This document shows positions 5,531-54,390 of a stretch of 64,000 nt of DNA, piece after piece. Where the stretch lies: positions 1 through 64,000 of the forward strand of contig CALXDD010000008.1 of assembly GCA_944386985.1 (NCBI GenBank), given 5' to 3'. Position 1 is the stretch's first letter, and each line of letters begins with the position of its first letter. Position numbers and translations under genes: made by a program. This DNA is from an uncultured Oscillospiraceae bacterium (lineage in GTDB: Bacteria; Bacillota; Clostridia; Oscillospirales; Oscillospiraceae). Under the pieces are notes generated by a model. That model saw only the letters and a list, made by a program, of their open reading frames with translations, ran no database searches and was not told the DNA's origin.

Positions 5531-6295
5531 TCTGACGAAGATCTTCTCCTCTAACCGGGAGATGGTATTACGATACCTTGTCATGCCTCCGGCGGGTGAC
5601 TTTTCTCACGGAAGAAAAGTCACCAAAAGTCCGCTTAAAACCTGCGGTTTTAAGAATTCCCTTGTCCTGACGTGTACTGTTAGTCCCCCCTGACTATTGT
5701 AGGCTCTGTTGCCTCCGACGCTCCGTGGACGTGTCCGGTACAGACTACTACCGCGCTTCGGCGCGCTCCATTGGCGGGTTGACGATAGTCGTTATGTCTA
5801 CCGTTTTCTCACCCCCCAAGCCTTCCCCTGGGGGAAGGTGGCGCGCAGCGCCGGATGAGGGGAAGGGTATCGGAATCCAGCAGGTTAATTCGGAGGAAGC
5901 GTTCTATTAAAAAGTCAAAGTTAGCTTTGATTTTTCCTCCGAGTTGGTCGGAAACTTTCGAGTGGCGTTCCCCTCATCCGCCTCCTTCGGAGGCACCTTC
6001 CCCCAGGGGAAGGCTTTAGTGTGGTGTAATTGCAGGGGCCCCCACGACCACCAGGGGAGCGCGCTTAAAGCGCGGAAGGAGTAGAAGACAGTCACCCCGT
6101 TGCAGCGTCAGCGGTACAAATCCCTCAATAGAGCATCAGGACAGCCAGTACAAGGAAACAAAGGAGTTCTTAGAACCATTGGTTCTAAGGGAGTTTTTGG
6201 TGACTTTTTGCTCGCACAAAAAGTTACCCGCCGGAGGCATAACGCCTATCAATACACCGTCGGGTATCGACAGAAAAAGAACCACCTGCGTCAGC
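5531..6295. mobile_element. Repeat element A (terminal-inverted-repeat family, about 765 bp)
   Basis: It runs from TCTGACG to CGTCAGC. The left end is of type II (ACCGGGAGATGGTATT box), the right end type I (ACCGTCGGGTATCGAC box). Just inside each end lie CCTCCGGCGG, a hairpin of the GTGACTTTT...AAAAGTCAC kind, and a palindrome (left TTAAAACCTGCGGTTTTAAG, right TTAGAACCATTGGTTCTAAG). Towards the centre come GTCAGGGGGGAC-type boxes and GCGCG-rich hairpins. There is no credible reading frame and no transposase. A nested repeat occupies 5818-6016. It lies between thiI and cinA. Confidence 0.85.
5818..6016. repeat. Nested inverted-repeat unit inside element A
   Basis: Bounded by AAGCCTTCCCCTGGGGGAAG and its near complement ending CAGGGGAAGGCTT, each joined to a GATGAGGGG / CCCCTCATC box. 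It holds an AT-rich centre. The same unit sits in elements C and D but not B, so it behaves as a separate insert. Confidence 0.75.
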
Positions 6296-7934: not shown

Positions 7935-8095
7935 AAAAATGAACACGCTCCGGTAGGTAAGGCTACCACAGGGATACGGATCGCTGCCGCGTAACCGTGG
8001 AGACACGGTGAGTTGGTTTGAGCAGGTCATGTCGAAACAGGAAGGCATGACATAACGCGATTACATCGCCCGGTGATGCTAAAGCTTGTACGGTG
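7935..8095 (+). promoter_or_regulatory. M-box (ykoK) magnesium riboswitch
   Basis: Conserved M-box blocks appear in order: GGTAGGTAAGGCTACC, then GGGATACGGATCGCTGCC, then the closing GATGCTAAAGCTTGTACGG. This class senses Mg2+ and shuts off Mg transporter genes when Mg is plentiful. The gene downstream is mgtE, the expected target. The expression platform is less clear; a GCTTTTTTG run near 8160 after a CTGCGAGTCCGCAG hairpin could be its terminator. Confidence 0.92.
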
Positions 8096-8232
8096 GGGAG
8101 ATCAGGTTGGCCTGGTTTTCCGTTTGAAAAAGAACCTGCGAGTCCGCAGCCATGGTACCAGCTTTTTTGTGTGCCGGCTGTGGATTTTCTTTTGCGCCAT
8201 CGGGGCATGATAGTGGAAAGGAGGAGCCGTAG

Positions 8233-13638: not shown

Positions 13639-14721
13639 ATGCGAAGATGTTTCGTTTTGCTGCTGGTCCTGGCAATGGCCCTGACCCTCACCGCCTGCTC
13701 CAAGAGCGAGGCTGCCCAGGCGGTGGACGACCAGATCGCCGCCATCGGCGAGGTGACGCTGGAGAGTGAGAGCGCCATTGCCGCCGCGGAGGAGGCGGTG
13801 GCGGCCCTGGCCGAGGAGGACCGCAAGCAGCTGGACAACGAGGACGATCTCAAGGAGGCCCGGGCCGCCTATGAGACCCTGGTTTTGGAGGACCAGGCCG
13901 CCGGCGTGGAGGATGCCATTGACGCCATCGGCACGGTGACCGTGGACAGCGGCGAGGCGGTGGAGGCCGCCCGGGCCCTGTACGACGCCAGCCCGGCGGA
14001 GGTCCAGGCGCTGGTGGAGAATTTCTCCGATTTAGAGGCCGCCGAGGAGACGCTCAGCGGACTGAAGGTGGAGGAGGCCATCCGTCTCATCGACGCCATC
14101 GGCACGGTGACAGCGGACAGCCGGGAGGCGGTGGAGGCCGCCCAGACCGCCTATGACGCCCTCACCCAGGAGGACGCGGCCAAGGTGACCAACGCCTCCG
14201 CCCTGGAGGATGCGGCCACCCAGCTGAAGACTCTGCTGGAGCAGCAGGCCAACTCCCTCCTGTCCACCATGCGGGTGGAGACGGACGCGGTGCGGGGGAT
14301 CAGCTTCTACTATCCCCAGGCCTTCCCCTACTACACGGACTACTGGGGGGCGGATGTGCGCTGCTTCGCGCTGCCCTATCTGGGCCGCAGCGGGGAGGAC
14401 GTGTGGCTGCGGCTGGTCTGCGACTACACCGCCGACGACTGGATCTTTTTCAAGCAGATCACCTTTGCCGTGGACGACGAGCGGTACTACAAAACCTTCA
14501 ACTACTTTGATGTGGTCCGGGACAACGCCTACGGCGATGTGTGGGAGTATGTGGACATCGAGGTGGGGAGCTCTGAGGAGGAGCTTCTGTGGGCCATTGC
14601 CAACTCCACCCAGACCATTGTCCGCTTTGAGGGCGACGACTATTACTACGACTTCACAGTGTCCGCCAACGACAAGCAGGCCATTCGGGACATGCTGACG
14701 GTCTACGATGCACTGAAGTAA
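13639..14721 (+). CDS. Lipoprotein with three FIVAR-like helical repeats
   Basis: A 360-residue predicted lipoprotein: the lipobox LTLTAC puts the lipidated cysteine near residue 20. About residues 25-210 hold three repeats of roughly 60 residues, each with the pattern IDAIGTVT-(DE)S-(RE)EAV-EAA-x-YDAL, typical of helical surface modules of gut Clostridia. The C-terminal 150 residues form an aromatic- and acid-rich domain I cannot name (GISFYYPQAFPYYTDYWGAD region). Start ATG follows GGGGGAGAAATC. A strong terminator follows. Confidence 0.8.
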   Translation: MRRCFVLLLVLAMALTLTACSKSEAAQAVDDQIAAIGEVTLESESAIAAAEEAVAALAEEDRKQLDNEDDLKEARAAYETLVLEDQAAGVEDAIDAIGTVTVDSGEAVEAARALYDASPAEVQALVENFSDLEAAEETLSGLKVEEAIRLIDAIGTVTADSREAVEAAQTAYDALTQEDAAKVTNASALEDAATQLKTLLEQQANSLLSTMRVETDAVRGISFYYPQAFPYYTDYWGADVRCFALPYLGRSGEDVWLRLVCDYTADDWIFFKQITFAVDDERYYKTFNYFDVVRDNAYGDVWEYVDIEVGSSEEELLWAIANSTQTIVRFEGDDYYYDFTVSANDKQAIRDMLTVYDALK

Positions 14722-19651: not shown

Positions 19652-20253
19652 GCTGACGCAGGAGATTTCTTTTTATCGGTACCCGACGGTGTACTGAATG
19701 GTGTTATGCCTCCGGCGGCCTACTTTTCTCGTCAAAGAAAAGTAGGCATCTCCGCGCTAAGAGCCTCGCTGCGGCTCGGTGAAAAGTTGGCTTAGAACCA
19801 AGGTTCTAAGGACTCCTTTGTTTCCTATTATGGGGGGTCTCGTTCCGTTTGTGCCGTGAGATTGTACGGCTGACAGAAGCAAGGGGGTGACAGTTCCCCT
19901 GTTTCCGCGCTTTAAGCGCGCTCCCCTGGTAGTTGTTATAGCCTCTGCAATTGCACCATGCCAAAGCCTTCCCCCTCCGGGGGAAGGCTTTGGGCCATCG
20001 TCTACCCACCAGGACAGCGCGCCGAAGCGCGGTATTAGGGGGACCATGACACGTCAACGGAGCGTCGGAGGCAACAGAGGTAAAATAGTCAGGGGGGACT
20101 GACTGTACACGTCAGGAAAAGGAGTTCTTAGAACCATTGGTTCTAAGCGAGTTTTTGGTGACTTTTTGCTCGCACAAAAAGTCACCCGCCGGAGGCAAAA
20201 CACTATTCGGTACACCGTCGGGTACCGACAAAACGATTCAAACTCTCGTCAGA
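19652..20253. mobile_element. Repeat element B (602 bp, both ends type I)
   Basis: Runs from GCTGACG to CGTCAGA. Both outer ends carry TCGGTACCCGACGGTGTAC or its complement. Inside are CCTCCGGCGG, the hairpins CCTACTTTTCTC...AAAAGTAGG (left) and GTGACTTTTTGC...AAAAAGTCAC (right), and the palindromes TTAGAACCAAGGTTCTAAG and TTAGAACCATTGGTTCTAAG. The centre is AAAGCCTTCCCCCTCCGGGGGAAGGCTTT cut to a simple hairpin, without the nested unit of A, C and D. It is the cleanest example of the family here. It has no gene. Confidence 0.88.
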
Positions 20254-20290: not shown

Positions 20291-20331
20291 CTGTTGTGTA
20301 CAATGCGATGTTATCAGAAGAATATCATTGC

Positions 20332-20755
20332 TTATTTCATGCCGGCGGTGATAATCGCCATGGCACAGGCCCCGGGAGGCAGAGCCTTCCGGGGGCCCCA
20401 TCAAAAAAGTTCCGGGGCAAATGAATTGCCCCGGAACCAAGGTTTTGCTCCGCAAAACGCTTGTACGCCGCTCCCGCGGCGGCCAGGTCTATGCCATGGC
20501 CCCGCACGTTTGCTGCAATGTACTCTCTGCGCTGATCAGGCTCTTATTTCATGCCGGCGGTGATAATCGCCATGGCACAGGCCCCGGGAGGCACAGCCTC
20601 CCGGGGACCCCATCAAAAAAGTCCCGGGACAAATGAATTGTCCCGGGACCAAGGTTTTGCTGCGCAAAACGCTTGTACGCCGCTCACGCGGCGGCCAGGT
20701 CTATGCCATGGCCCCGCACGTTTGCTGCAATGTACTCTCTGCGCCGATCAGGCTC
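20332..20755 (-). repeat. Two tandem 212-bp gene-end units after pta
   Basis: Units 20332-20543 and 20544-20755 are about 95% identical and join head-to-tail with the pta stop codon. Read with the gene, each unit holds a 3' spacer, a reverse complement of pta bases 20781-20796 (GCCATGGCATAGACCT, at 20697-20712 and 20485-20500), four hairpins, and a copy of the last 33 pta bases including TAA. Proximal-unit hairpins: 20678-20693, 20654-20670, 20621-20649 (loop ATTCATTT, followed by TTTTTT) and 20582-20606. Related units follow udp and pgi. Confidence 0.88.
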
Positions 20756-21769
20756 TTATTTCATACCGGCGGTAATAATCGCCATGGCATAGACCTCGTC
20801 GGCATTGCAGCCGCGGCTGAGGTCGTTGATGGGGGCGTTCAGACCCTGCAGAATGGGGCCGTAGGCCTCATACCCGCCCAGGCGCTGGGCAATCTTGTAG
20901 CCGATGTTGCCCGCCTCGATGCAGGGGAACACAAAGGTGTTGGCATAGCCCGCCACCTTGCTGCCGGGGAACTTCAGCTGGCCAACGGTGGGGCTCACCG
21001 CGGCGTCAAACTGCATCTCGCCGTCAATGGCCAGCTCGGGCGCCATCTCCTGCGCCGCCTTGGTGGCCGCGGCGCTGAGCGCCACCGTGCCGCCCTTGCC
21101 GGAGCCCTTGGTGGAGAAGCTCAGCATGGCAACCTTGGGCTCAATGCCGAAGAACTTGGCGGTCTTCGCGGACTCCACCGCTACCTCCGCCAGCTTCTGG
21201 GCGGCAGTCACAGTGACGTTGCCCTCCTTGTCCACACTGTCCTCATAGCTGATGTTGATGGCGCAGTCGCCCATGCACAGCTTCCGCAGGGCCTCGTCGC
21301 CGCCTTCCCGGGTCAGGATAAAGCAGGAGGACACCAGATGGGCGCCGGGCTTGGTTTTGATGAGCTGCAGCGCGGGACGGACGGTGTCGGCGGTGGAGTA
21401 GGTGGCGCCGCCCAGCAGCGCGTCGGCCACGCCCATCTTCACCAGCATGGTGCCGAAGTAATTGCCCTTCTGCAGAGCGGCCCTGCACTCGTCGGCGGTC
21501 ATCTTGCCCTTGCGCAGGGCCACCATGGTCTCCACCATCTCGTCCATCTTCTCATAGGTGGCGGGATCAATAATGGCAGCCTTGGAGATGTCAAAGCCGT
21601 TCTTCTCCGCGGCGGCCTTCACCTCATCCACGTTGCCCACCAGGATCACATCCATCAGATCCTCCTTCATCAGGCGGGCGGCAGCCTCCTGAATGCGGGC
21701 GTCGGGACCCTCGGTGAACACAATGGTGCGGCGGTTTTCCTTCAGAATGTTGATGAGAGACGTTAACAT
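20756..21769 (-). CDS. pta: Phosphate acetyltransferase
   Basis: A 337-residue Pta, exchanging CoA and phosphate on acetyl groups (acetyl-CoA to acetyl phosphate), the first step of acetate formation. It has the PTA_PTB fold with GVADALLGGATYSTADTVRP and SFSTKGSGKG, and ends NADEVYAMAIITAGMK, a normal C-terminus, so the repeats after it have not shortened it. ATG 21769 follows GTAGGAGG. ackA is not adjacent. Its last 33 bases are copied twice more downstream with two synonymous differences (ATT/ATC and GGT/GGC). Confidence 0.95.
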   Translation of the reverse strand: MLTSLINILKENRRTIVFTEGPDARIQEAAARLMKEDLMDVILVGNVDEVKAAAEKNGFDISKAAIIDPATYEKMDEMVETMVALRKGKMTADECRAALQKGNYFGTMLVKMGVADALLGGATYSTADTVRPALQLIKTKPGAHLVSSCFILTREGGDEALRKLCMGDCAINISYEDSVDKEGNVTVTAAQKLAEVAVESAKTAKFFGIEPKVAMLSFSTKGSGKGGTVALSAAATKAAQEMAPELAIDGEMQFDAAVSPTVGQLKFPGSKVAGYANTFVFPCIEAGNIGYKIAQRLGGYEAYGPILQGLNAPINDLSRGCNADEVYAMAIITAGMK

Positions 21770-37095: not shown

Positions 37096-37833
37096 TCTGA
37101 CGAGGGGGATGTCTGTTTTTGTCGGTACCCGACGGTTTTTCGATAGGTGTTTTGCCTCCGGCGGCCTACTTTTGTCGCTGAACAAAAGTAGGCAAAAATC
37201 AGCTTAGAACCAAGGTTCTAAGGACTCCTTTATTTCCTATTATGGAAAGTCTTGTTCCGTGAATTCGTTACCTTGTGCGGCTGACCCTGCAAGGGGGTGA
37301 CAGTTCCCCTGTTTCCGCGCTTCGGCGCGCTCCCTTGGTGGTTGTAGGAGCCTCTGCTCCTTTTAGCCTTCCCCTGGGGGAAGGTGCCTCCGAAGGAGGC
37401 GGATGAGGGGAACGCCACCCAAAAACTCCAAGCCAACTCAGAGAAAATCAACAACCAATTTTTGGCGGGAAGCTGCCTCCGAATTGATCTGCTAAATTCC
37501 GATACCGCTCCCCTCATCCGTCCCAGTGTGCGCACTGGGCCACCTTCCCCCAGGGGAAGGCTTTTAGACACAGCAACCATCGTCAACCCACCAATGGAGC
37601 GCGCCGAAGCGCGGTAGTAGTCCGTACCGGACACGTCCACGGAGCGTCGGAGGCAACTGGGCCAAAATAACCAGGGGGGACTGACAGTACACGTCAGGAC
37701 AAGGGAGTCCTTAGAACCGTAGGTTCTAAGCGGACTTTTGGTGACTTTTCTTCCGCGAGAAAAGTCACCCGCCGGAGGCAGAACCAAGTATCGAAATACC
37801 ATCTCCCGGTTAGGGGAGAGAGCAATCGTCAGA
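37096..37833. mobile_element. Repeat element C (738 bp) between ileS and an XRE gene
   Basis: Runs from TCTGACG to CGTCAGA. The left end is type I (TCGGTACCCGACGG), the right end type II (ATACCATCTCCCGGTTAGG), the mirror image of element A. It has the same inner hairpins (CCTACTTTTGTC...AAAAGTAGG, GTGACTTTTCTT...AAAAGTCAC) and palindromes (TTAGAACCAAGGTTCTAAG, TTAGAACCGTAGGTTCTAAG). Its right end stops three bases before the XRE stop codon. Nested unit at 37365-37564. Confidence 0.87.
37365..37564. repeat. Nested inverted-repeat unit inside element C
   Basis: Starts AGCCTTCCCCTGGGGGAAGG, ends CACCTTCCCCCAGGGGAAGG CTTTT-like, with GATGAGGGG/CCCCTCATCC boxes and an AT-rich middle, as in elements A and D. 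Confidence 0.72.
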
Positions 37834-38401: not shown

Positions 38402-38680
38402 AAAAGCGCCTTTGCCTCACAAAGAGACAAAGGCGCTCTATCAGCCTCTGCGGTACCACTCTTTTTGCCGGGAAAAAGCAATCTTCCCGGCCGCTCAAGC
38501 CTGTGCGGTAACGGGCACACCCGGCGGCGTCTACTAAGGGGGAATCATCCACCCTGTTGGGGCCGCTGCTCCAAGGGGATCTTCCCCGGCGCTCCCTCTC
38601 CGCCCTTCCACCAATACGGGCGGCTCTCTGTGGAGGTCCTTCCAGGTACTCTTCCTTTTCCACGCAGTTTTCCATGATAA
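38402..38680 (-). promoter_or_regulatory. T-box leader specific for isoleucine, separated from ileS
   Basis: Minus-strand blocks: AAGGAAGAGTA (stem I loop E), AGAGAGCC, TTAGTAGACGCCGCCGGG and CCCGTTACCGCAC (stem III region), and the antiterminator core AGAGTGGTACCGCAGAGG. The terminator is AGCGCCTTTG.../CAAAGGCGCT at 38405-38438 with T-rich tail. The specifier loop reads GAAG-ATC-CCC, so the codon (38578-38580) is Ile ATC. The next synthetase gene downstream is ileS, after a 1.36-kb insert. Confidence 0.88.
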
Positions 38681-38806: not shown

Positions 38807-39568
38807 ATGCAGGAAATGGAAAAACAGTTTCACATCCGCTGCGCGCCCGGAGACGTGGGGCGCTACTGCATCCTGCCCGGAGATCCGGGCCGCTGCGCCG
38901 CCATCGCCGCCCTCTTCGACGACGCCCGGCTCATCTCCCAGAACCGGGAGTTTACCGTCTACACCGGCAGCCTTTTAGGGGAGAAGGTCACCGTCTGCTC
39001 CACCGGCATCGGCGGCCCCTCCGCCGCTATCGCCATGGAGGAGCTTACCGCCATCGGCGCGGACACCTTCGTCCGGGTGGGCACCTGCGGCGGCATCGAC
39101 TTGGACGTCCGGTCCGGGGACATCGTGGTGGCCACCGGGGCCGTCCGCCAGGAGGGCACCAGCCGGGAGTACGCCCCCATCGAGTTTCCGGCGGTGGCGG
39201 ATCTGGCCGTGGCCAACGCCCTGGTGGACGCCGCCCGCAGCCTGGGCAAGACCGTCCACGCCGGGGTGGTCCAGGCCAAGGACAGCTTCTACGGCCAGCA
39301 CTCCCCCGGCAGGATGCCGGTGAGCTTCGAGCTTCAAAACAAGTGGGAGGCCTGGAAGCGGCTGGGGGTGAAGGCCAGTGAGATGGAGAGCGCCGCCCTG
39401 TTCGTGGTGGCGGCGGCGCTGCGGGTCCGCTGCGGTGCCTGCTTCCATGTGATCTGGAACCAGGAGCGGGAGGCCGCGGGCCTGGACCAGGACATGAGCG
39501 AGGACACCAGCGCAGCGGTACGGGTAGGCGTGGAGGCTCTGAAGCTGCTGATTGAGCGGGACCAGTAA
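38807..39568 (+). CDS. udp: Uridine phosphorylase
   Basis: A 253-residue nucleoside phosphorylase of the NP-I family: [18 protein letters not shown] near the start (phosphate loop), [16 protein letters not shown] (uridine phosphorylase signature), [11 protein letters not shown], and [13 protein letters not shown] with the ribose-binding Glu. It splits uridine with phosphate into uracil and ribose-1-P. ATG 38807 follows GAGGTGACCGCT. Its last 66 bases recur 215 bases downstream with almost only synonymous changes; the two ends read IERDQ and IERDRG. Confidence 0.93.
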
Positions 39569-39576
39569 CGTCCTGC

Positions 39577-39778
39577 GTGTCCTCGCTCATGCCGCCGGTA
39601 ATCCGGCGTACAAGCATTTTCCCCGCAGGGGAAAATCTTGGCGCAGGGCGGATTCACTCCGCCCGAGCATGTAAAATTACAGGGCTCCCAGCGCGGCAAG
39701 CCGCGCTGGGATGCGAGGACACGTCGGCAGCGGTACGGGTAGGCGTGGAGGCCCTGAAGCTGCTGATTGAGCGGGACC
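39577..39778 (+). repeat. Gene-end unit after udp
   Basis: It opens with GTGTCCTCGCTCATG (39577-39591), the exact reverse complement of udp bases 39493-39507. Then come hairpins 39593-39608, 39616-39636, 39646-39664 (loop GATTCACTC) and 39686-39711, and a copy of the last 66 bases of udp (39713-39778 against 39498-39563), closing RG-stop. ACC-AGC became ACG-TCG and GCT became GCC without changing the protein. Confidence 0.87.
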
Positions 39779-39810
39779 GGGGATAATCTTCCTTTCATAA
39801 AAACAGAGAG

Positions 39811-39866
39811 ACCGCCGGCAGGGGCGCGCGGGAGAATTTCCCGCTGCCGTCTGCCGGCGGTTTTTG
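39811..39866 (+). terminator. Intrinsic terminator after udp and its gene-end unit
   Basis: ACCGCCGGCAG pairs with CTGCCGGCGGT, followed by TTTT; an inner GCGGGAGAATTTCCCGC stem lies in the loop. Confidence 0.88.
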
Positions 39867-46394: not shown

Positions 46395-47717
46395 ATGATT
46401 TCTGTTGATTACAGTAAAGCTGCCGGCAAGGTATCCGACTTTGTCCCCAGCCTCCAGCAGGCCCACACCTGGCTTCAGGAGGCCACCGGCCGGGGCAACG
46501 ATTTTGTGGGCTGGGTGAACCTGCCCCGGGATTATGACAAGGCGGAGTTCGCCCGCATCCAGGCCGCCGCCAGGAAGATCCAGAGCGACAGCAAGGCCCT
46601 GGTGGTCATCGGCATCGGCGGCTCCTATCTGGGGGCCAAGGGCGCCATCGACTTCCTCTGCTCCCCCAACTACAATCTGAAGAAAAAGAACACCCCCAAC
46701 ATCTACTTTGTGGGCTGCGGCCTCTCCGCAGACTATCTGCAGGAGGTCATGGACCTCATCGGGGACGACGACTTCTCCGTCAACGTGATCTCCAAGTCCG
46801 GCACCACCACCGAGCCCGCCGTGGCCTTCCGGTTCTTCCGGGCGGCCCTGGAGAAGAAGTACGGCAAGGCCGAGGCGGCAAAGCGGATCTACGCCACCAC
46901 CGACAAGGCCCGGGGCGCTCTGAAGAGTCTGGCCGACGCCGAGGGCTATGACACCTATGTGGTGCCCGACGACGTGGGCGGCCGCTACAGCGTGCTCACC
47001 GCCGTGGGCCTTCTGCCCATCGCTGTGGCCGGTGTGGACATCGCCCAGCTGATGGCCGGCGCGGCGGAGATGATGGAGACCTGCCGCAAGGCGGACCTTT
47101 CCGAAAATCCCGCCTGGCAGTATGCCGCCGCCCGCAACGAGCTGTATCAGAGCGGCAAGAAGATCGAGATTCTGGCCGCCTACGAGCCCGCCTTCCGGTT
47201 TATGACCGAGTGGTGGAAGCAGCTCTACGGCGAGAGCGAGGGCAAGGAGAACAAGGGTATTTTCCCCGCCAGCGTGGAGTTCACCGCGGACCTCCACTCC
47301 ATGGGCCAGTACATCCAGCAGGGCGAGCGGCACATCTTTGAAACGGTGGTCCGCTTTGGTCCCTCCGCCGCCGATCTGAAGGTGCCCTACGACGAGTCCG
47401 ACGGGGACGGCCTCAACTTCCTGGCGGGCAAGGATATGGACTACATCGCCACCCAGGCCATGGACGGCACCCTGCTGGCCCATGTGGAGGGCGGCGTGCC
47501 CAACATGATCGTGAAGGTGGGGGAGAAGAACGCCTACACCCTGGGTGAGATCATCTACTTCTTTGAGTATGCCTGCGGTCTCAGCGGCTATCTGCTGGGT
47601 GTGAACCCCTTCGACCAGCCCGGCGTGGAGGCCTATAAGAAGAACATGTTTGCCCTCCTGGGCAAGCCCGGCTATGAGGAGAAGGGCGCGGAGCTCCGGG
47701 CCAAGCTGGGCCGGTAA
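46395..47717 (+). CDS. pgi: Glucose-6-phosphate isomerase
   Basis: A 440-residue PGI, interconverting glucose-6-P and fructose-6-P. Motifs: [19 protein letters not shown] (sugar-phosphate loop), [32 protein letters not shown], and [16 protein letters not shown] [17 protein letters not shown] with the catalytic Glu/His. ATG follows GAGAGGAGAT. A TATACT -10 with TTGTCT at 18 bases precedes it. Its last 54 bases plus one are copied 211 bases downstream. Confidence 0.95.
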
Positions 47718-47743
47718 GCTGCAGAATTTCCCCCTTTGCAGGA

Positions 47744-47929
47744 GGGCTTGCCCAGCACCGCCGCTTGCGGCGGTACGAGCGTTTTGCTGCGCAAAACCTC
47801 GGCGTAAGGCGGAATTCATTTCCGCCGCGCATGTCCAATCAAAGGGGTCCCCGCGGAGCCTGCTCCGTGGGGAAAAGCCCGGCTACGAGGAGAAGGGCGC
47901 GGAGCTCCGGGCCAAGCTGGGCCGGTAAG
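47744..47929 (+). repeat. Gene-end unit after pgi
   Basis: It opens with GGGCTTGCCCAG (47744-47755), the reverse complement of pgi 47658-47669. Hairpins: 47758-47773, 47781-47797 (GTTTTGCTGCGCAAAAC), 47808-47826 (GGCGGAATTCATTTCCGCC) and 47849-47872. It closes with a 55-base copy of the pgi end (47875-47929 against 47664-47718) with one synonymous change (TAT to TAC). Confidence 0.87.
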
Positions 47930-53519: not shown

Positions 53520-54390
53520 GCTGACGGAGGTGGTTCTTTTTTGTCGGTACCCGACGGTGTACTGATCGGTGTTTTGCCTCCGGCGGGTGACTTTTTGTGC
53601 GAGCAAAAAGTCACCAAAAACTCGCTTAGAACCAATGGTTCTAAGAACTCCTTTGCTTCCTATTATGGGGAGTCTTGTTCCGTTTGTATCGTTACCTTGT
53701 ACGGCTGACAGAAGCAAGGGGGTGACAGTTCCCCTGTTTCCGCGCTTCAAACGCGCTGCCCTGGTGGTCGCAGGAGCCTCTGCAATTACACCAGGCCCAA
53801 CACAAGCCTTCCCCTGGGGGAGAAGGTGAAAAATTGTCAGCAGCAATGGACTACCGGACTGCGGTCTCCTCGCGGCATAGCCGCTGTGGCCTACGCTAAA
53901 AACATGCCGCTGGCATGTTTTTTAACGCTGCAGGGTGGCACGGCGAAGCCGTGACGGATGAGGGGAACGCCGCCGAAAAGCCTCAGACCAACTCGGAGGG
54001 AAAATCAAAAACTAATTTTAACTTTTGGCCGAATGTTGCCTCCGAATGAATGATTTGGGTTCCGATACCCTTCCCCTCATCCGCCTCCTTCGGAGGCACC
54101 TTCCCCCAGGGGAAGGCTTTTAGACGAAACAGCCATCGTCTACCCGCCAACGGAGCGCGCCGAAGCGCGGTATCAGGGGGACCATGACACGTCAACGGAT
54201 CGTCGGAGGCAGCAGGGCCAAAATAGTCAGGGGAGACTGACAGTACACATCAGGACAAGGGAATTCTTAAAACCGCAGGTTTTAAGTCAACTTTTGCCTA
54301 CTTTTCTTTGACGAGAAAAGTAGGCCGCCGGAGGCATAACACCTGCCGACGTGCGTCGGCCGCCGACAAAACGAACCGCTCCTCGTCAGA
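53520..54390. mobile_element. Repeat element D (871 bp, both ends type I)
   Basis: Runs from GCTGACG to CGTCAGA. Left TTGTCGGTACCCGACGGTG; right GCCGACAAAACGAACC with part of the box changed to CGACGTGCGTCGGCCG. Inner hairpins GTGACTTTTTGT...AAAAAGTCAC (left) and CCTACTTTTCTT...AAAAGTAGG (right); palindromes TTAGAACCAATGGTTCTAAG and TTAAAACCGCAGGTTTTAAG. The nested unit (53814-54120) is the longest here, with extra hairpins such as AAAACATGCCGCTGGCATGTTTT. No gene. Confidence 0.87.
53814..54120. repeat. Nested inverted-repeat unit inside element D
   Basis: Bounded by AAGCCTTCCCCTGGGGGAGA and CTTCCCCCAGGGGAAGGCTT, with GATGAGGGG/CCCCTCATCC boxes and an AT-rich centre, plus about 100 extra bases of small hairpins (ACGGCGAAGCCGT and others) not in A or C. 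Confidence 0.72.

Follow-up and report, generated by a model that had tools for sequence, protein, structure and literature searches.

The window analysed here is a stretch of 64,000 nucleotides from an uncultured Oscillospiraceae bacterium. On its forward strand, at 38807–39568, it holds an open frame that we take to be a udp-like gene, a name that goes back to a preliminary description of this DNA and to recognition of the protein sequence; orthologues are present in 49 of 60 relatives. The body of the gene (U) extends to 39497 and is followed by the gene end in use (E, 39498–39568), which reads IERDQ*. A 15-mer, CATGAGCGAGGACAC, crosses from U into E at 39493–39507 (a), and its exact inverse complement (a') is located at 39577–39591, separated from the stop codon of E by a spacer of 8 nt. 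Four hairpins follow on the same strand: H1 at about 39592–39608, H2 at 39611–39640 with a CAAG ... CTTG foot, H3 at 39646–39664 with a conserved ATTCA loop, and a terminal hairpin T at 39686–39711. The first three are supported by folding and covariation, T by folding and by the direct repeat behind it; an additional small hairpin lies at about 39670–39681. At 39713 a second copy of the gene end begins (E', 39713–39786, forward strand), which reads IERDRG* and has its own stop codon.

The preliminary description had pointed out the inverted 15-mer, the four hairpins and a direct copy of 66 bases (39498–39563 against 39713–39778), and all of these are present, the direct copy being 92% identical. 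The recoding of ACC-AGC to ACG-TCG and of GCT to GCC between the two copies and the difference of their protein ends were likewise read correctly. As to the proposed switch between serine codon families, the differences are real, but the block of four changed bases need not reflect one event. The cut, that is the insertion point, lies between 39497 and 39498, and the unit spans 39498–39712 (215 nt), which leaves no room for a gene such as a homing endonuclease. When the 306-nt stretch 39485–39790 was folded as DNA, a z-score of −6.0 was obtained and none of 100 shuffles was equally stable. Behind E' a repeat search found a terminator-like inverted repeat (39811–39861, forward strand) that is probably the old terminator of the udp-like gene.

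The unit belongs to a family of hairpin elements, which the preliminary description, made without tools, had missed, as it had the fact that the inverted 15-mer straddles the insertion point. A covariance model built from 12 copies of the same genome gave 36 matches in that genome and matches in 22 of 60 genomes including it; all 10 congeners were positive with 10 to 55 matches each. The architecture described for udp does recur: within the window, repeats and model matches reveal a second unit with both gene ends at a pgi-like gene (47664–47929, forward strand) and two tandem units with three gene ends at a pta-like gene (20331–20798, reverse strand). The common layout is U, E with its stop codon, a spacer, a', H1, H2, H3, T and finally E', with a protein-free hairpin core of about 125 nt. 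Gene names used here (udp, pgi, pta, era, aspS, infB, lepA, uvrB, rnhA etc.) are those we presume from recognising the protein sequences.

The fold is well supported by sequence variation. In an alignment of 84 distinct sequences, three of them weak matches, that had been produced by fitting to the model, 98.2% of the pair cells hold standard pairs. Both sides have changed in 29 of 31 base pairs, a level reached in none of 500 shuffles, and sliding the pair partners by 1–3 columns drops the share of standard pairs to 35–55%. G-T pairs account for 32 of 2425 paired cells (1.3%) when one column pair is left out and for 70 of 2500 (2.8%) when it is kept; structured RNAs contain more G-T pairs than these stems. 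Rfam holds no such family. At its gathering score the window gives two unrelated matches, a T-box leader (38420–38671, reverse strand) and an M-box riboswitch (7942–8104, forward strand).

In phage and plasmid collections a single match was found, in MT838705.1, a record deposited as a phage whose open reading frames look bacterial, so that it is apparently a bacterial fragment. At its locus (L319, positions 1–300), as at L018 and L073, AATCCAAAAAA and a terminator-like hairpin replace T, and by eye a tRNA-like gene is adjacent. Outside the genus the layout with a gene-end copy was seen at 7 of 8 loci examined in G032, clearly at 1 of 8 in G020 and at 0 of 7 in G042, while the loci examined in G028 showed only non-coding direct repeats. 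G042, a relative of another family, has 94 model matches; the seven loci (L091, L211, L216, L220, L224, L228, L231) lack gene-end copies and lie within a longer shared repeat. Since the gene-end copy is scarce in G020, G042 and G028, the form with cargo and address described here may have specialised within a broader family of hairpins. The window also contains a second repeat family (5580–6243, 19668–20236, 37149–37784 and 53568–54343) with units of roughly 0.5–0.8 kb and imperfect inverted ends of 63–98 nt, and similar sequence lies behind genes in L016, L105 and L131. A 122-nt direct repeat at 13917–14209 (171-nt spacing, 73% identical) is probably a repeated protein segment.

We then considered how the element is joined to its genes. 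Matches were selected by hand, dropping repeats of the same element as well as weak, truncated or window-duplicate matches, which gave 136 distinct copies from the own and related genomes; genomes and loci had been picked by model score, so well-preserved copies are over-represented. In 90 of the 136 the end copy is joined to T, E' beginning at most 7 nt from T, the end of the model match. Judged by open frame and strong third-position GC, coding sequence runs across the left junction, on the side of a', in 76 of these 90 copies and across the right junction in 2. Gene-end copies are oriented in the sense direction. At 66 non-tandem gene-end sites the cut precedes the end of the stop codon by 31–94 nt (median 61). 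E and E' cease to resemble each other exactly at the stop codon in 19 of these and 0–3 nt past its end in 33; taking all these sites together, the limit of similarity ranges from 24 nt upstream of that end to 61 nt downstream of it. Most often the element lies within a gene end. In a few copies it is located at a gene start and antisense to the gene (lepA-like L062 and L197, uvrB-like L101, also L078, L145 and L233), and here the start codon and, on visual inspection, the ribosome-binding region fall within E. As E reaches approximately to the stop codon, or includes the start codon and ribosome-binding region, it comprises about what the gene needs to stay whole. For what we recognise as uvrB, units are present at the gene end (L143, L144) and at the gene start (L101, L146) in different species. 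At the cut there is a weak preference for AANGA|GG and no stronger motif.

The same site is occupied in some congeners and empty in others. Compared by eye with a congener that lacks the element, the era-like and aspS-like sites and L055, L057 and L068 have matching sequence behind E', and E' therefore lies in its native place there; at the pta-like and L060 sites sequence resembling the downstream region of the congeners follows E instead. A gene recognised as a phage-like portal gene (L057, L108, L129) harbours a unit in the own genome, whereas its counterparts in G004 and G006 lack one.

The complementarity between a' and the gene was assessed at 82 distinct sites by comparing the sequence ahead of H1 (up to 45 nt) with the 60 nt surrounding the cut. 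At 55 of the 82 sites the score was 9 or higher, as against 2.4% of controls in which a' and site were mismatched; the other 27 scored below 9. In 51 of the 55 the complementarity spans the cut, with coverage mostly from about −4 to +9. Moreover, a' differs between species along with the gene: at the era-like site GAAAATTGG is paired with CCAATTTT in G000 and G006, whereas the partner of GAAAACTGG is CCAGTTTT in G002 and CCGGTTTT in G008. These sequence relations make it likely that a' is a guide that addresses the element to the insertion point. Differences between E and E' near the cut allow a' to be compared with each of them: it agrees with E in 25 cases and with E' in 8, a count biased towards E by a placement that was searched on E; the preference fits a structure formed in cis as well as it fits a guide. 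The idea that E was recoded to escape its own guide, which predicted an a' matching E', was dropped, the count being opposite with the same placement bias. G.T wobbles are not clearly enriched among the mismatches between a and a' (28 of 131, with 2 of the 12 mismatch kinds being G.T).

It had been proposed that both copies of the udp end evolved as coding sequence, and the family as a whole bears this out. Among 75 gene-end pairs we counted 177 synonymous and 52 nonsynonymous codon differences, distributed over the three codon positions as 47, 31 and 200; this count skips the first 6 nt after the cut and excludes pairs more than 30% different, which favours constraint. Random placement of the differences gave a mean of 74.7% nonsynonymous changes and a minimum of 64.6% in 1000 runs. 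Fourteen of the pairs are identical, synonymous changes exceed in 52, and nonsynonymous changes equal or exceed them in 9. When the 30% limit was lifted, 160 synonymous and 45 nonsynonymous differences were obtained in 68 pairs called gene ends, and 19 and 17 in 16 pairs called gene starts, some of which are mislabelled gene-end pairs; a further 6 pairs had no frame. E and E' are thus both under coding constraint. Decayed displaced copies were seen at L055, where E' is frame-shifted, and at L161 and L192.

Between species E' differs about as much as E, and within a genome E and E' are usually closer to each other, suggesting that the two ends of one genome usually evolve in concert. The between-species totals are 296 synonymous and 64 nonsynonymous differences for E against E and 272 and 105 for E' against E'; these 814 codon comparisons count related pairs repeatedly and include the out-of-register udp pair of G002 and G005 and one frame-shifted copy. 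In nine same-site comparisons in which the cores are at least 0.83 identical (random pairs have medians of 0.66 and 0.68 and a 99th percentile of 0.79), the displaced copies show 48 synonymous and 12 nonsynonymous differences by hand summation, or 41 and 4 without the frame-shifted L055 row.

Which of the two udp ends is older can be judged from five congeners in which no unit abuts udp. At the recoded position they read ACC TCC (G004, G006, G010), ACC ACT (G001) and ACC CAG (G008), and their proteins end in RDRG* (G004), RDKG* (G006), ADRG* (G001, G010) and QDQAAK* (G008). E', with ACG TCG and RDRG*, shares the TCN serine and the RDRG* end with congeners, so that it looks ancestral, and E, with ACC AGC and RDQ*, looks derived. 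Relative to ACC TCC, E has changed the serine codon and E' has changed both codons. This orthologue comparison does not show E' to be a randomly decaying duplicate. Complete units occupy the same udp cut in G000, G002 and G005 and in one of 80 named udp loci, L239 (CALXGG010000115.1, an uncultured Oscillospiraceae MAG). Remnants consisting of a' and H1 are clear at udp in G007 and less clear in G003, the contig of G009 ends within the udp region, and in G008 model matches lie at distances of about 200 nt or more downstream of udp and are not accompanied by a gene-end copy.

Taken at a probability of roughly one half, our main reading is that the udp unit is a non-autonomous mobile element directed to its site by an address complementary to the insertion point; that it moves is what we infer from these patterns. 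Neither an excised form nor a transposition event was seen, nor, inside a single species, an empty allele, which speaks against it. The mobile unit would comprise E, a', the hairpins and T; pairing of a' with an unoccupied gene would fix the insertion point between U and E'. By restoring the gene, E would pay for the insertion, and the element probably enters important genes without breaking them. Transfer would most likely involve folded single-stranded DNA and, in some resemblance to IS200/IS605, a trans-acting enzyme. E' would come back into use if the unit were excised precisely or if E and E' recombined, and this would account for its remaining coding and for the concerted evolution of the two ends. 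Single-stranded DNA is moderately favoured over RNA because G-T pairs are rare, wobbles are not clearly enriched between a and a', and gene-start copies are antisense. A more specific form of this reading falls somewhat short of even odds: a protein-free, self-addressed homing cassette that carries one gene's remaining codons and a cut-spanning guide, which an enzyme inserts into conserved genes and cleanly removes, so that every copy has written its own address and the two ends alternate.

We searched for protein families that could supply such an enzyme. Reverse transcriptase (PF00078) was found in only 4 of 15 genomes searched, drafts in which genes may be missing. In the 11 genomes of the genus, the Y1 transposase TnpA (PF01797) was found in 3, the TnpB-type nuclease (PF07282) in 2 and the IS110-type DEDD transposase (PF01548) in 4, one of them below the cut-off; PF01797 was also absent from G020, G028 and G042. 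The IS91 family (PF04986) was found in none of the 11 and in none of 14 control genomes either, so that this search has no positive control. None of the five families tracks the element, and on this ground TnpB homing, IS200 TnpA, IS110 and IS91 were set aside as its source. A diversity-generating retroelement or target-primed reverse transcription was rejected as well, reverse transcriptase being absent from 11 of 15 carriers and the differences being synonymous and not adenine-directed.

The arrangement could also have arisen by insertion of a palindromic, REP- or MITE-like sequence with a long target-site duplication. Here a' would have no guiding role and would have arisen incidentally when the break was copied by snap-back or template switching, and E and E' would have been homogenised later by recombination. 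The core is indeed flanked by direct repeats, and tandem arrays together with concerted evolution point to recombination between E and E'; at L217 in G032 a duplication of 109 nt runs through the terminator, and terminator-like hairpins stand behind E at L060, L165 and L169. Random insertion should, however, land both ways, whereas coding sequence was found across 2 right and 76 left flanks of 90, and neither an a' that spans the cut and varies with the gene between species nor a displaced copy that stays coding is expected from it. We consider this account unlikely. L217 and the hairpins at L060, L165 and L169 had also suggested that the right boundary is set by transcript ends, an idea that is not general.

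Splicing at the RNA level is a less probable course still. The segment from E to T would be removed and U joined to E', with a' bringing the exons into line as an internal guide, as happens in group I introns, and E' would be kept because it is translated. Pairing of a' with both sides of the junction of U and E, coding constraint on E' and the sense direction of gene-end copies agree with this. The antisense orientation of gene-start copies (L062, L078, L101, L145, L197, L233) and the rarity of G-T pairs in the stems argue against it, as does the Rfam search of the udp unit, in which no intron model matched up to E = 5 and the sole match was an ATPC motif (E 0.72, far below the cut-off). The core of about 125 nt is also shorter than the self-splicing introns known to us.

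The preliminary description had left two origins for the second end, displacement of the original end or a diverged allele. The congener endings favour displacement. On visual comparison the two udp ends resemble each other more closely than either resembles any congener end compared, and they therefore split inside their own lineage, which speaks against a diverged allele as donor. Import of one end, and of the element along with it, from a diverged strain by homologous recombination would produce purely synonymous differences, as expected for two working alleles, and at the era-like site of G006 E does resemble the G004 end while E' resembles the G000 ends. At udp and most sites compared, however, the two ends of a genome resemble each other more than they resemble those of other species, and import leaves a', the asymmetry of the junctions and the boundary at the stop codon unexplained; we hold it to be improbable, a little more so than splicing. 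An assembly artefact has a negligible chance, for although these are draft genomes and some contigs end in or near elements (e.g. L021, L135), the layout is repeated in the own genome, in many copies from 10 congeners that were each assembled separately, also in G029 and G032 and in CALXGG010000115.1.

If the guided mobile element is real, mobile DNA can rely on coding sequence that is conserved, or even essential, as a place to land, and the element supplies the codons that it cuts off together with the address for its next landing. Such a guide, specific to one gene and attached to a core of about 125 nt, would represent a natural principle of programmable insertion. The element would also create hybrid gene ends, which can mislead annotation and phylogenies, and the question why selection keeps a displaced gene end would become testable.

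Several known systems share parts of this arrangement. In group I and group II introns and in IStrons a guide pairs on both sides of, or beside, the insertion point; unlike these, the present element matches no intron model, occurs with reverse transcriptase in 4 of 15 genomes and carries the gene end itself. REP- and MITE-like elements are short, protein-free, multicopy hairpins that are non-autonomous, and the present family resembles them as a set of multicopy, protein-free palindromes with 36 matches in its own genome. Their mobilisation would call for a transposase, and the four transposase-type families searched (PF01797, PF07282, PF01548, PF04986) do not track the element. We know of no gene-end cargo and no site-specific complement in REP- or MITE-like elements, nor of gene-end cargo in IS110 elements.

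IS110 elements are addressed to their insertion site by a non-coding bridge RNA, according to the part of the account considered here (PMC11208160); in contrast to them, the matching transposase is limited to 4 of the 11 genomes in the genus, and one of these four matches falls below the cut-off. The likeness to IS200/IS605 is closer. For IS608, the sections consulted describe folded ends, insertion that needs no inverted ends, and a guide which lies 5' to the foot of a hairpin and base-pairs with the site of cleavage or the target (PMC5934647). Here a' lies just before H1, in the same place as that guide, and is predicted to pair across the cut at 51 of 82 sites. The guides of IS200/IS605 are given in those sections as 4 nt long and common to all copies (PMC5934647), whereas the address described here has about 9–17 nt and differs from gene to gene, and PF01797 is present in only 3 of 11 genomes of the genus.

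The closest known system in effect is, by analogy, that of the mobile open reading frames of fungal mitochondria that replace the C-terminus of a gene, reported in the portion of the source used here for atp6 of Allomyces and for atp6, atp9, cox2 and nad3 of Glomus (PMC3630166). There, as at udp and in its family, the replacement end is in frame and the native end is displaced behind the element. The two ends can differ only synonymously; for the end of Glomus atp6 the authors, in that portion, report only synonymous differences to a relative (PMC3630166). The fungal elements encode a homing endonuclease and their inserted end is reported there as foreign (PMC3630166), whereas the present units have no open reading frame and their two ends are usually sisters within one genome. 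Unlike the fungal elements, they also combine a complementary address with a hairpin core of about 125 nt and occur in tens of copies at different genes. Open-licence papers held no description of this family that we could find, in searches several of which yielded no papers and carry little weight. We rate the combination of a gene-specific address, a gene-end cargo and the lack of any protein as new, while each part alone has a precedent.
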